NCBI RefSeq assembly: GCF_017873605.1
Contig: NZ_JAGGKI010000016.1
Location: 1 to 64,000, forward strand
From: Paenibacillus lactis
GTDB taxonomy: Bacteria > Bacillota > Bacilli > Paenibacillales > Paenibacillaceae
Length of the DNA stretch: 64,000 nt
Direction of reading: 5' to 3'
The notes below the pieces were generated by a model, which was given only the letters and a program-made list of their open reading frames with translations, ran no database searches and was not told the DNA's origin. The position numbers were made by a program, and so were the translations under genes. This document shows positions 20,232 to 41,408 of the stretch, piece by piece (position 1 is the first letter of the stretch; each line of letters begins with the position of its first letter).

Positions 20232-20276
20232 AAAAACATAAAGAGGCAAGGCGACATGATCGTCTCCTTACCTCTT
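20232..20276 (-). terminator. Terminator of the folD riboswitch (expression platform)
   Basis: AAGAGGTAAGG and CCTTGCCTCTT pair around a small inner CGA/TCG hairpin, then TATGTTTTTATTG. The 5' arm begins directly at the last aptamer bases (GGGCA/AGAGG), so ligand-bound P3/pseudoknot structure would compete with it. Confidence 0.85.
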
Positions 20277-20346
20277 GCCCAGGCGTACGGCATATGAAAC
20301 TATGCGCTCCCTCTTGGTACCCCAAGCTACGCCAGTAACGCATAGT
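20276..20346 (-). ncRNA. ZTP (pfl) riboswitch upstream of folD
   Basis: On the minus strand P1 is ACTATGCG (20346-20339) with CGCATAGT (20306-20299). The conserved ACTGGCG (20336-20330) follows, then the P2 hairpin CTTGG-GGTA-CCAAG (20326-20313), GGGAGC (20311-20306), and finally CCG and CGCCTGGGCA (20285-20276). This order and these bases match the pfl/ZTP aptamer consensus. The riboswitch senses ZTP/ZMP, the alarmone of 10-formyl-THF shortage, which explains folD downstream. The terminator at 20232-20276 serves as a transcriptional ON-type platform. Confidence 0.93.
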
Positions 20347-20410
20347 CTACGTACTACTACTATACCATGAGCTTGCGGGAATACGCCATAGCTTCGGTGG
20401 AAAGAGTTAT

Positions 20411-23764: not shown

Positions 23765-24098
23765 AATATGCAGTTATGCCGGAACATGAAACGCCATATA
23801 CCCTGCTTCACAATCTCAATCCATATTCATATTTCAAGCACTTGTTTATCGTAATAACGACTAGTTTAGTTGTGAAGATTTAGCTCCCTTTTATCTATTA
23901 ATAATCGTCGGTAAAAAATGTTTTGAACGATGCTCTCCCCTCCTCCGATGCGGTTTCTATGCTATCGTTGAAGACAGAAATGCATCAAGTCGACACGCGA
24001 GGGCACAAACAACCTTTTCTTTGGCGGACCAAAATGACCAAAAATTAGAATTGATTTATCGAATGCGAATCCAATGCATCAATAAGGAGGTTTTACGA

Positions 24099-24650
24099 AT
24101 GTCTGATATACAAAATCCTGGCGTCATCATAGTGACAGGGGCCATGGCTTCCGGCAAATCCACCATCGCCCAGCTATTGGCGGAAAAATTTGATCGTGCC
24201 GTTCATTTACGGGGAGATACCTTTCGAAGGATGATTGTCAAAGGAAGGGAAGAACTGCTACCTGTCGCCTCAGAGGAAGCGTTAGCCCAGCTTGAGCTGC
24301 GGTATCGTCTTTCCGCTTCCGCCGCGGCCGCCTATGTCGCTGCCGGGTTCCAGGTCGTGCTTCAGGATATCATCATCGGGGCTCACTTGCAGACTATGGG
24401 CAACCACTTAAAGGGCGTCCCGGTATATATCGTCGTTTTGACGCCTAACCCCGAAGTCCTCCTTCAGAGGGAAGCGCAGCGGAATAAGAAAGGATACGGC
24501 ATTTGGGAAGCCGAAGAGCTGGACCGGCGGCTGCGTGAGGAAACGCCAAAAATCGGTTTATGGCTCGATACGTCGGATTTGACCATTGAACAGACGGTAG
24601 ATGCCATCTGGGAGCGGGTTTGGAGCGAGGGAAAGCTTGAACGGCTATAA
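24099..24650 (+). CDS. P-loop phosphotransferase / kinase-like protein
   Basis: The N-terminal G-A-M-A-S-G-K-S-T-I-A is a Walker A loop, followed by L-R-G-D-T-F-R-R-M as in chloramphenicol-phosphotransferase-like and small-molecule kinases. F-Q-V-V-L-Q-D-I-I-I-G supplies a Walker B-like Asp. The R-E-A-Q-R-N-K-K-G-Y lid region is typical. ATG 24099 is chosen because AAGGAGG lies eight bases upstream; the 26 extra in-frame codons have no ribosome site. The substrate is unknown, and resistance is only one possibility. Confidence 0.85.
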   Translation: MSDIQNPGVIIVTGAMASGKSTIAQLLAEKFDRAVHLRGDTFRRMIVKGREELLPVASEEALAQLELRYRLSASAAAAYVAAGFQVVLQDIIIGAHLQTMGNHLKGVPVYIVVLTPNPEVLLQREAQRNKKGYGIWEAEELDRRLREETPKIGLWLDTSDLTIEQTVDAIWERVWSEGKLERL

Positions 24651-26127: not shown

Positions 26128-26577
26128 TCATTCTACCTTGTACAAAGTTACCTCGTAATCATGAAAAACATCCTCAATGATTCCATATACAACACTCCAA
26201 TCCCCATTTGCCAGGCCGCAGCCAATGTTGAACGGTAAAGCTACGCTAAGACCGTCTTTTTGTGCTTCCGTCTTAAGTGCGGCTAGGGACTCCTTCAAAG
26301 CTTCATAATACGTGTACCTCACTTTTTGTCTTCCATAATTGAGCTGACCAAACAGATTGGCAACGGATTTGTTATCGGTTTTGACGATCAGGCACTTGCC
26401 TAATACATCATGTGGATCGTGGTTTTGGCAAAATTCTTTATAAGCAGGAAATAAGCTCGGATACTTGTTTCGCAGCAGCTTAGCGATTCCGGACCCCATA
26501 ACCCCTTGACAATTTACTTGGTGCCCAATGATATCCTCAGCAGCTTCAAGCAAGCTCCCTTCAACCATTTTAATCAT
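26128..26577 (-). CDS. Macro-domain protein (ADP-ribose hydrolase-like)
   Basis: This is a stand-alone macro domain of about 149 residues. G-S-L-L-E-A-A-E-D-I-I-G-H-Q-V-N-C-Q-G-V-M-G-S-G-I-A-K-L-L-R is the ribose-phosphate binding start, and L-P-F-N-I-G-C-G-L-A-N-G-D-W is the second loop. It resembles the TARG1/Poa1p-like group that removes ADP-ribose from acidic residues or dephosphorylates ADP-ribose-1''-phosphate. ATG 26577 follows GGAGGAG. No NAD-dependent toxin partner is visible next to it. Confidence 0.9.
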   Translation of the reverse strand: MIKMVEGSLLEAAEDIIGHQVNCQGVMGSGIAKLLRNKYPSLFPAYKEFCQNHDPHDVLGKCLIVKTDNKSVANLFGQLNYGRQKVRYTYYEALKESLAALKTEAQKDGLSVALPFNIGCGLANGDWSVVYGIIEDVFHDYEVTLYKVE

Positions 26578-26687
26578 CCCGACTCCTCCATGCTTCATGC
26601 ATTCATTCATGCTTGTATTCCCCAAGCATTAGTACCTTATTGTATCCCTCTTCCGGAAGTTGGTAAAGGGCCCCAAGACTAGGGTCG

Positions 26688-26704
26688 CTGGTAAAAAACA
26701 ATTA
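26688..26704. repeat. Conserved upstream box of RNA element A
   Basis: CTGGTAAAAAACAATTA occurs identically at 40813-40829, at nearly the same distance (40 versus 41 bases) from a TAATAT box. It may be an UP-like or activator element of a shared promoter. Confidence 0.6.
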
Positions 26705-26744
26705 AGCCTATTTATTCACTACAACCTGCTCCAGGGCTATGGTT

Positions 26745-26874
26745 TAATATAGATGTCCGGCCGGACGGAATTCACCGGAAAGGAGGCTGAACGAATTGAT
26801 TCAGAATACGGAGGTGGCATTCGCGTAAAGCGGATGCTGCACGAACAAGGGGAGCCTCTAGGGCTCCCCTTTTG
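26745..26874 (+). ncRNA. Structured RNA element A (copy 1 of a paired family)
   Basis: TAATAT is followed by the hairpin GTCC-GGCC-GGAC (26755-26766), CGGAAAGGAGGCTGAA (26776-26791) and a CTGAA/TTCAG hairpin whose loop holds a TTG start. A third hairpin, GCATTCGC-GTAAA-GCGGATGC (26817-26837), holds the TAA of a 10-codon ORF. The terminator GGGGAGCC/GGCTCCCC (26849-26869) with TTTTG ends it. The same order occurs in element B at 40871, with compensatory changes in two stems. No gene follows on this strand. It does not match an RNA family I know. Confidence 0.7.
26796..26828 (+). CDS. 10-residue peptide of RNA element A
   Basis: TTG 26796 lies nine bases behind AAAGGAGG and opens the ORF (M)IQNTEVAFA-stop. 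The paralogue in element B reads MIQIHEVVFA, so six of the nine residues after the start are shared (I, Q, E, V, F, A), with one synonymous codon change. The stop codon sits in the loop of a hairpin. It may be a leader peptide or a secreted/signalling microprotein; it is too short to judge coding by composition. Confidence 0.5.
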   Translation: MIQNTEVAFA

Positions 26875-40812: not shown

Positions 40813-40829
40813 CTGGTAAAAAACAATTA
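40813..40829. repeat. Conserved upstream box of RNA element B
   Basis: CTGGTAAAAAACAATTA is identical to the sequence at 26688-26704 and lies 41 bases before the TAATAT of element B. Between them the two copies diverge. Confidence 0.6.
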
Positions 40830-40870
40830 TTATTGTTTTATCTATTGCAAATTTCCACCAATCTATGGCT

Positions 40871-41000
40871 TAATATAGAGGTCGGGCCGACGAAATGAGC
40901 GGAAAGGAGGCTGAAGCGCAATGATTCAGATCCACGAGGTGGTATTCGCTTAAAGCGAATACCCGTTCCCATGGGAGCCCCCGGGGCTCCCTATATCTGT
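40871..41000 (+). ncRNA. Structured RNA element B (copy 2), upstream of a CD3324-family gene
   Basis: After TAATAT come the hairpin GTCG-GGC-CGAC (40881-40891), the 16-base block CGGAAAGGAGGCTGAA (40900-40915) identical to element A, and a CTGAA/TTCAG hairpin with an ATG in its loop. The 9-bp hairpin GGTATTCGC-TTAAA-GCGAATACC (40941-40963) holds the stop codon. A GGGAGCC/GGCTCCC terminator (40973-40991) follows, then TATATCTGTTTT. Compared with element A, stem pairs change C-G to G-C and C-G to T-A, showing selection on structure. It may regulate the gene at 41121 by attenuation. Confidence 0.72.
40921..40953 (+). CDS. 10-residue peptide of RNA element B
   Basis: ATG 40921 lies ten bases behind AAAGGAGG and opens MIQIHEVVFA-stop. 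It matches the element-A peptide MIQNTEVAFA. The start lies in one hairpin loop and the stop in the next, so a translating ribosome would open both stems. A leader-peptide role for the CD3324-family gene is inferred. Confidence 0.55.
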   Translation: MIQIHEVVFA

Positions 41001-41052: not shown

Positions 41053-41190
41053 ATGATCAATACAATTGTTTTGACACTCAGCGATAGCTTGAACATTCAT
41101 ACAGAAAGAGGAGGGCATCGATGGGCCATTACAAAAACGGTAGAGAAGTGCTTCCCCCCGAGCTGCTGCAGCAAATTCAACAGTATATAG
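41053..41190 (+). CDS. Possible upstream ORF overlapping the CD3324-family gene
   Basis: ATG 41053 follows AAAGGAGGAGGG and opens a 45-codon ORF (MINTIVLTLSDSLNIHTERG onward) that continues past the CD3324-family start in another frame. No similarity is recognised. It may be a regulatory uORF or chance; the strong ribosome site is the main support. Confidence 0.3.
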   Translation: MINTIVLTLSDSLNIHTERGGHRWAITKTVEKCFPPSCCSKFNSI

Positions 41191-41408
41191 ACGGAGAACT
41201 TCTCTACATACCGAAACAAAGCGAGCAAAGAGCCGGCTGGGGTGAATTAAGCGGTTCCCGAGAACGCATCGAACGTCGCAATAAGGAAATGTACCGGGCC
41301 TACTGCAAGGGCCGGACCATTGAAGAATTAGAACGGACCTACTTCCTGTCCGGAGAAAGCGTCCGCAAAATCATCAGTAAACTTACCCGCGTTGGGACTA
41401 GAACCTAA
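41121..41408 (+). CDS. CD3324-family HTH protein
   Basis: This 95-residue protein begins GHYKNGREVLPPELLQQIQQY and has I-D-G-E-L-L-Y-I-P, both typical of the CD3324 family common in Clostridia and Paenibacillus. The C-terminal T-I-E-E-L-E-R-T-Y-F-L-S-G-E-S-V-R-K-I-I-S is a helix-turn-helix of the Mor-like type, so DNA binding is likely; the targets are unknown. The start is preceded by GAGGAGGG. Upstream lies RNA element B, which ends in a terminator, so expression may depend on read-through. Confidence 0.85.
   Translation: MGHYKNGREVLPPELLQQIQQYIDGELLYIPKQSEQRAGWGELSGSRERIERRNKEMYRAYCKGRTIEELERTYFLSGESVRKIISKLTRVGTRT

Follow-up and report, generated by a model that had tools for sequence, protein, structure and literature searches.

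What is a unit of little more than a hundred nucleotides that occurs twice in one stretch of bacterial DNA, and what might it do where no gene follows it? In the window, i.e., the whole stretch of 64,000 nucleotides of Paenibacillus lactis DNA analyzed in this work, a sequence-only reading had singled out positions 26688-26874 (copy A) and 40813-41000 (copy B) as two copies of an unknown structured RNA with a 10-residue peptide, and had proposed a small RNA or a signalling microprotein. The positions are correct, there is indeed no gene on the same strand directly behind copy A, and the observation as a whole is borne out, A and B being two members of one conserved family. The interpretation holds in part: the unit is a structured element with a conserved open reading frame (ORF), but its usual place, which is that of copy B before a gene for a CD3324-type regulator, and a second Shine-Dalgarno-like site inside the ORF (SD2) had been missed.

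A conserved family of small units

Both copies possess a common 17-nt box (26688-26704 in A and 40813-40829 in B), an identical 16-nt block, CGGAAAGGAGGCTGAA (26776-26791 and 40900-40915), a 10-codon ORF (LIQNTEVAFA in A, with its TTG start read as Met, and MIQIHEVVFA in B), a stop-codon hairpin, and a terminator-like hairpin, all as originally described. From 5' to 3', the unit consists of the promoter-like box, an extended -10-like sequence, TATGGnTTAATA, a GC-rich inverted repeat, a Shine-Dalgarno sequence (SD1), the ORF, the stop hairpin, and a last hairpin (Table 1). Chance is excluded as the cause of the likeness between A and B, since GGAAAGGAGGCTGA with at most one mismatch occurs twice in the window compared with 0.01 occurrences expected from shuffles, since a blastn search of copy B against its own 6.7-Mb genome returned copy A at an E-value of 1.6e-17 and 12 other matches at 0.004 or worse, and since the unit recurs in hundreds of genomes.

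Table 1. Features of copies A and B and of the gene behind copy B
Feature	Position	Strand	Evidence
Copy A, promoter-like box CTGGTAAAAAACAATTA	26688..26704	+	Identical in B; 98% mean identity in 7 A-type loci, vs 37% far upstream
Copy A, extended -10-like TGG TTTAAT	26740..26748	+	Conserved in family alignments; promoter role inferred
Copy A, palindrome GTCCGGCCGGAC, near presumed transcription start	26755..26766	+	Inverted repeat in nearly all members examined
Copy A, Shine-Dalgarno SD1 GGAAAGGAGG	26777..26786	+	Family-wide
Copy A, 10-codon ORF TTG...TAA, (M)IQNTEVAFA	26796..26828	+	Frame kept across family
Copy A, internal SD-like GAGGTG (SD2)	26811..26816	+	First base 15 nt before stop
Copy A, stop-codon hairpin, loop GTAAA	26814..26840	+	Fold; cognate-pairing test over 52 members
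Copy A, GC-rich terminator-like hairpin, then T residues	26847..26871	+	Folds; cognate-pairing test; not called by consensus scan
Copy B, promoter-like box with dyad AAAACAATTATTATTGTTTT (40820-40839)	40813..40839	+	Sequence; family consensus
Copy B, extended -10-like TGG CTTAAT	40866..40874	+	Family alignments; not called by consensus scan
Copy B, inverted repeat GTCGGGCCGAC	40881..40891	+	Family alignments
Copy B, Shine-Dalgarno SD1 GGAAAGGAGG	40901..40910	+	Window scan, alignment
Copy B, 10-codon ORF MIQIHEVVFA	40921..40953	+	Translation
Copy B, internal SD-like GAGGTG (SD2)	40936..40941	+	Family comparison
Copy B, stop-codon hairpin, 10 bp, loop exactly UAA	40941..40963	+	Fold, z -5.1
Copy B, terminator-like hairpin	40973..40991	+	Fold; called by consensus scan
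CD3324-family (Mor-like) regulator gene behind copy B	41121..41408	+	NF040785, E 6e-33, 112.8 bits (cut-off 65); Pfam Mor, E 8e-8

Covariance models, which had been proposed as the means of finding relatives, brought up further copies in hundreds of genomes. An exact pattern located the element in 5 of 60 relatives. The first model, R1, built from seven copies and applied to the genus at an E-value of 0.1 or better, found it in 85 of 100 genomes, and the matches form two tiers, namely, A- and B-like copies of 98 to 124 bits in 12 genomes and copies of 45 to 74 bits in another 72; the remaining genome, G023, gave no more than 28 to 33 bits, as did a second place in G035. The second model, R2, detected the element in 223 of 394 genomes of the family (11 of 19 genera; more than one copy in 12 genomes) and in 186 of 296 genomes of the order (29 of 48 genera; more than one copy in 5 genomes), and most element-bearing genomes have a single copy. 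With the third model, R3, 27 of 398 genomes of the class were matched: 18 in the order, 3 strongly outside it, and 6 weakly (E 0.0016 to 0.0095; L132-L137), the latter lacking the anatomy of the element and being taken as chance matches. Searches over 40 genomes were run with stricter filters, by which weak matches are lost. Outside the order, the element is also present in Oceanobacillus, Virgibacillus, Lentibacillus, and Lederbergia. When named genomes were scanned with a pattern, 101 stretches were obtained, and R3 matched 76 of the 80 listed (all except L155, L166, L193, and L211), the matched loci including ones from Paenibacillus, Cohnella, Oceanobacillus, Virgibacillus, Lederbergia, Scopulibacillus, and Pseudalkalibacillus; as this pattern demands GAGGTG and a stop beginning with TA, the set is excluded from the statements on invariance and stop usage made below.

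The impression of an unfamiliar family is in line with Rfam 15, in which no match at the gathering threshold was found over the element in the window or, in E-value mode, in 18 element loci. The nearest matches are two sub-threshold ones to ftsZ-DE in the region of the 3' hairpin (L016, 21.2 bits, E 3; L111, 30.2 bits, E 0.04; gathering threshold, 72.2), which we take as a chance likeness between GC-rich hairpins. Copy B had no match in plasmid and phage collections, and no paper on the element was found among the titles listed, most subscription journals lying outside that search; PMC5670726 is an RNA-seq study of P. riograndensis. The family and its coding signature are well supported by sequence comparison, and the unit is apparently an uncatalogued tiny gene of about 120 bases for a ten-residue peptide, present in Paenibacillus-like soil bacteria and far too short for the usual gene callers. 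A large share of the order's genomes searched here, together with several Bacillaceae-type genera, keep it, usually in one copy.

A constrained frame and two hairpins

The scan of the family covered 97 of 114 loci (all except L002-L015, L019, L021, and L112) and gave 102 matches, 87 of which are distinct. A parser accepting 8 to 13 codons found the ORF frame in 86 of these 87 members, and in L103 the ORF is visible by reading. Ten codons are present in 79 members, 11 in 4, 12 in 2, and 13 in 1, an alternative in-frame start being available in the three longest. The 86 parsed ORFs end in TAA (77) or TAG (9) and never in TGA, which accounts for 188 of 649 stops of long ORFs in the same DNA. GAGGTG starts 15 nt before the in-frame stop in 87/87 distinct members found by covariance model, a spacing seen in 0/649 of the background long ORFs, which may include spurious ones, though Glu-Val occurs at those codons seven times. 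Over 52 diverse members, mean duplex energies with the anti-SD are -17.0 kcal/mol for SD1 and -12.1 kcal/mol for the internal GAGGTG. The entropies of the last three codons (in bits, n = 52) are 0.71, 0.14, and 0.00 at the first position, 0.66, 0.84, and 0.97 at the second, and 1.63, 0.71, and 1.69 at the third, which is the most variable position in two of the three codons. We read this variation as a coding-like signature with two layers of constraint, one on the peptide end, conserved as E-V-V/I/A-S/F-A/V-stop, and one on the RNA; in the stem codons, the signature could partly reflect a sequence preference of the hairpin.

Such a frame may point to a functional 10-residue peptide, either an internal signal or a protein-binding microprotein, for which the RNA features would only ensure expression and release. 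The conserved length and frame of the ORF, its largely conserved E-V-[VIAT]-[SF]-[AV] end with third-position variation, and the conservation of orphan copies, i.e., those without a downstream gene, all agree with this explanation, which we nevertheless consider unlikely. Residues 3 to 5 are free, F/S and T/M swaps occur inside the A group, and GAG GTG is without synonymous change in 87/87 distinct members, a constancy beyond the needs of a peptide alone. The second elements of L139 and L167, which are outside the 87-member set, carry AAGGTG in place of GAGGTG, so that Glu is changed to Lys while AGGTG stays. The unit could still encode the free signalling microprotein of the sequence-only reading, but 10 residues leave no room for the usual export signal, and constraint on the peptide falls mainly on its last residues. 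When the family was compared with Phr-type peptides, neither an export signal nor a longer precursor was found, 83 of the 87 members having 10 or 11 codons.

RNA pairing was assessed by comparing the energy of a pair of regions in their own RNA with the energy after partners had been swapped between species; this was done in 52 diverse members chosen by an 8-mer overlap filter (L077 and L100 are absent from these statistics), whose counts are not independent because the members are related. Of the hairpins proposed originally, two are strongly cognate-specific, with z values of about -14: the stop hairpin has -16.8 kcal/mol compared with -11.4 kcal/mol for swapped partners (z -13.8), and the last hairpin has -19.1 compared with -13.8 kcal/mol (z -14.1), whereas the start-codon hairpin is weak (z -4.2). 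The statement that start and stop codons lie in hairpin loops holds for the stop codon, which is unpaired in 49 of 52 hairpin folds with loops of 3 to 7 nt. The covarying feature is the stop hairpin, not the start hairpin: for 5 of its 9 pairs there are sequences in which both bases differ and still pair, and for three of these pairs such sequences number 8 to 13 of 28.

A strong last hairpin is present in 85 of 85 parsed members (mean, -18.4 kcal/mol). Only 23 of these 85 have at least five T residues in the 8 nt that follow, so that termination may be partial or absent. A scan by consensus called the hairpin of copy B and none in copy A; the designation as a terminator rests on conservation. 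RNAalifold, run with the terminator included, misaligned the last hairpin, which was consequently omitted from the models. Antiterminator structures were rejected, since no such pair had a cognate excess in the 52 members; the values were z +1.5 for SD1 with the 3' arm of the terminator and z -0.6 for the 3' arm of the stop hairpin with the 5' arm of the terminator. Pairing of the inverted-repeat region with its own SD1 reached z -2.9, and a weak masking of SD1 is possible.

The promoter-like region and the neighboring genes

The family alignment gives the consensus GGTAAAAAAC-nn-TTATAACTGTTCTTTC-n-CTTG for the box upstream of the ORF. The core of this box, GGTAAAAAACAATTA, has only two exact copies in the genome; copies with one mismatch elsewhere in the genome (4 of the 6 matches) have no element in the adjoining sequence. 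A consensus scan of the + strand called no sigma-70-type promoter in either copy, and the promoter label thus rests on conservation. The pairs GTCC/GGAC and GTCG/CGAC, originally described as a covarying stem, do belong to an inverted repeat, and a short RNA hairpin is possible at this place in most members; in 7 of 51 diverse members, however, the repeat is a loopless palindrome of 6 to 10 nt (e.g., AAGCCGGCTT and TGCCGGCA), where an RNA hairpin is impossible and the sequence may instead be a site in the DNA. That the repeat forms an RNA hairpin in every lineage is therefore doubtful.

A shorter pattern of the box was found at 27 places in 23 of 198 genomes, compared with 2 matches for the reversed pattern used as a control. 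As judged by position and by the reading of ten loci, 19 of these places are at the element and 8 at other promoters (L245, L264, L263, L253, L254, L255, L259, and L261). According to names given from translations, the latter lie, two each, before genes for an ABC-F ATPase, thrS, rpsD, and one further gene. The core is perhaps an UP element of strong promoters used by translation genes; given its presence at other promoters, a dedicated activator site is not established. This bears on a further explanation, in which the box and palindrome form a DNA-level regulatory site bound by CD3324 or another factor and the RNA is a by-product. The conservation of the box and inverted repeat would agree with such a site, as would six loci examined in the Oceanobacillus group, in which two elements flank CD3324 (apparently truncated in one of them), but we find it hardly credible: the ORF frame, the spacing between SD2 and stop, and the stop hairpin would be left unexplained, the repeat allows an RNA hairpin in most members, and the part of the box shared with the rpsD, thrS, and ABC-F promoters may be an UP element plus -35 rather than a factor site.

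The usual place of the element is upstream of a CD3324/Mor-like regulator gene, as in copy B. In a regular-expression search, a CD3324 gene was located behind the element, on the same strand, in 84 of 102 matches; the 18 misses are 12 A-type copies, 2 contig ends (L045 and L105), 1 frameshifted CD3324 (L066 = L138), and 3 loci (L093, L078, and L095) in which a second reading reveals a CD3324-like frame. For the named set, the count is 66 of 92 matches, the misses including second copies, weak or antisense matches, and loci with little downstream sequence. The CD3324 gene is more widespread than the element, as it was found in 261 of the 296 genomes of the order (1 to 8 matches each) compared with 186 for the element, of which the strict filters may miss weak examples. 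Two (L118 and L119) of the eight top-scoring CD3324 loci (L115-L122) have the element. No paper was found in the literature under the name of the CD3324 regulator family. In L139, L160, L163, L167, L183, and L191, a second, divergent element (e.g., MLTKLNEVALV) is located 718 to 880 nt behind the first, beyond CD3324.

In aligned loci of one genus, g1 (13 loci), and of one family, f6, and its neighbors (13 loci), a separate promoter for CD3324 seems to lie behind the element, read by eye as TAGACG-N17-TATAAT in g1 and as TAGACA-N17-TATAAT in several f6 loci. By the same reading, there is a further small ORF before CD3324, and f6 also has a second strong terminator-like hairpin. An own promoter weakens the reading of the element as a leader in the single-copy g1 loci and in f6. 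These data are relevant to the idea of a purely cis-acting, ribosome-mediated transcription attenuator of CD3324, similar to antibiotic-responsive leader peptides. The same-strand position of CD3324 behind most matches argues for it, as do the consensus scan, which called no separate promoter between copy B and CD3324, the five loci in which the element immediately precedes a P-loop kinase gene, and the existence of uORF attenuators, described in PMC8632094. Its probability seems decidedly low to us, given that no alternative antiterminator pairing is cognate-specific, that CD3324 seems to be transcribed from its own promoter in single-copy g1 loci and in f6, and that orphan copies have no gene to control.

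Two further observations concern the region between the element and CD3324. In the f6 loci L077, L084, L086, L101, L102, and L108, it contains a second leader, composed of a small ORF ending in GAGGTR-N9-TAA, a conserved GGAATAACCG, a hairpin GGCACGAT..ATCGTG, and a long T run, for which there is no Rfam match at threshold. In the window, a second small ORF of 45 codons (41053-41190, + strand) has its own SD and overlaps the start of CD3324, and the g1 loci have a comparable SD and start.

In five loci of the offshoot that includes copy A (L018, L020, L022, L023, and L024), a P-loop kinase gene directly follows the element; the three of these kinases that were scanned have matches to the AAA_33 and CPT domains. 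A search for a remnant of the element before the kinase gene of the window found none. In eight places (L016, L017, L019, L020, L023, L026, and the second elements of L018 and L024), a convergent gene is close behind the element, and by reading it is the sugar-binding-protein gene of the window. Seven A-type loci were aligned, namely, L016, L017, L019, L020, L023, L026, and L021, which is cut by a contig end; the convergent gene is close behind six of them. Compared pairwise, their sequences are on average 98% identical in the box, 100% between SD and start, and 93% in the ORF, but the values fall to 56% in the last hairpin, 47% downstream, and 37% far upstream. The last hairpin could serve the convergent gene as well, but the conservation of the SD and ORF is not explicable in that way. 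The conserved orphans, together with a promoter-like box and a terminator-like hairpin of its own, would also fit a base-pairing small RNA of about 120 nt, in which the ORF is incidental or only modulates the RNA. Since the most conserved parts are the SD, the ORF frame, and the stop spacing, and since the sequence of the last hairpin is poorly conserved in the A-type loci, we hold this to be very unlikely.

A possible ribosome-responsive mini-mRNA

That the unit has been conserved, in most cases next to one regulator gene, suggests a role in reporting on ribosomes or in acting through them. Tentatively, and with a probability that we place somewhat below even, we favor a translated mini-mRNA that holds ribosomes at its stop codon, serving as a ribosome-responsive leader before a gene and acting in trans in the orphans. 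The promoter and the extended SD would load a ribosome onto the 10-codon ORF of a transcription unit of about 110 to 125 nt. With the stop codon in the A site, GAGGTG would end 6 nt before the P-site codon, which is close to ordinary SD spacing, so that the terminating ribosome could be retained, and the conserved last residues perhaps help to hold it; this retention is proposed from spacing and pairing energy. As estimated from ribosome footprint sizes, a held ribosome would cover the 3' arm of the stop hairpin, thereby keeping it open, and would about reach the start of the ORF, hindering the next initiation. When no ribosome is present, the hairpin would close over the stop codon, and two states set by ribosome traffic would result.

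Before CD3324 or the P-loop kinase gene, such a mini-mRNA could serve as a leader responding to ribosomes through partial termination or read-through, although no base-pairing switch supports a partial read-through into either gene. Orphan copies such as A have no downstream gene and would require an action in trans, through the RNA or the peptide, or an effect exerted by occupying ribosomes. A more far-reaching version, according to which the units form a class of stand-alone, trans-acting, ribosome-sensing mini-mRNAs with the terminating ribosome as ligand, a programmed SD that holds it, and a stop hairpin that toggles, appears rather doubtful.

The element can be compared with several known systems. 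Ribosome-mediated attenuators with short leader peptides include the erm, cat, and vmlR types. Like these, it combines a short ORF that overlaps an RNA structure with a terminator-like hairpin, often upstream of one gene; unlike them, it has a fixed SD-like site before the stop, a stop codon in a hairpin loop, conserved orphans, and no cognate antiterminator pairing. Its manner of working would resemble that of a translated leader or a dual-function small RNA, but the antiterminator, one defining feature of a classical attenuator, was not found. Dual-function small RNAs with a small ORF, such as SR1 and SgrS, are likewise small transcription units, but the 10-codon ORF is the core of the element, and we know of no stop-codon hairpin or SD2 in SR1 or SgrS. 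In internal-SD recoding and pausing signals, e.g., that of prfB, an SD-like sequence acts on the ribosome at a stop codon, as is proposed for the element, but the SD-stop spacing of prfB is shorter than that of the element, in which the stop follows 15 nt after the first base of GAGGTG. Leaderless or Phr-type signalling peptides share with the element a very short peptide adjoining a regulator gene, whereas the element lacks the usual export signal and has its strongest constraint at the nucleotide level. The nearest published motif found is uORFC-6-1, which PMC8632094 places upstream of hflX in Bacillales and which encodes an Arg-Leu-Arg peptide; the peptides of the element are without this Arg-Leu-Arg motif, and its target gene differs from hflX.

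The element offers a compact natural case for the effect of an SD-like sequence before a stop codon on the terminating ribosome and a way into the study of the CD3324 regulator family. Furthermore, with its orphan copies, one can ask cleanly whether an ORF or RNA of such small size has an effect in trans.

Three other features of the window may be of interest. The P-loop kinase (24021-24650, + strand) has matches to AAA_33, CPT, and Zeta_toxin, its best PDB match being 2bdt (BH3686; E 3e-6). The sole Rfam match in the window is a ZMP/ZTP riboswitch at 20270-20349 on the - strand (RF01750, 61.1 bits). A macro-domain protein encoded at 26128-26625 on the - strand is weakly similar to the DarG antitoxin (67 bits; cut-off, 250).
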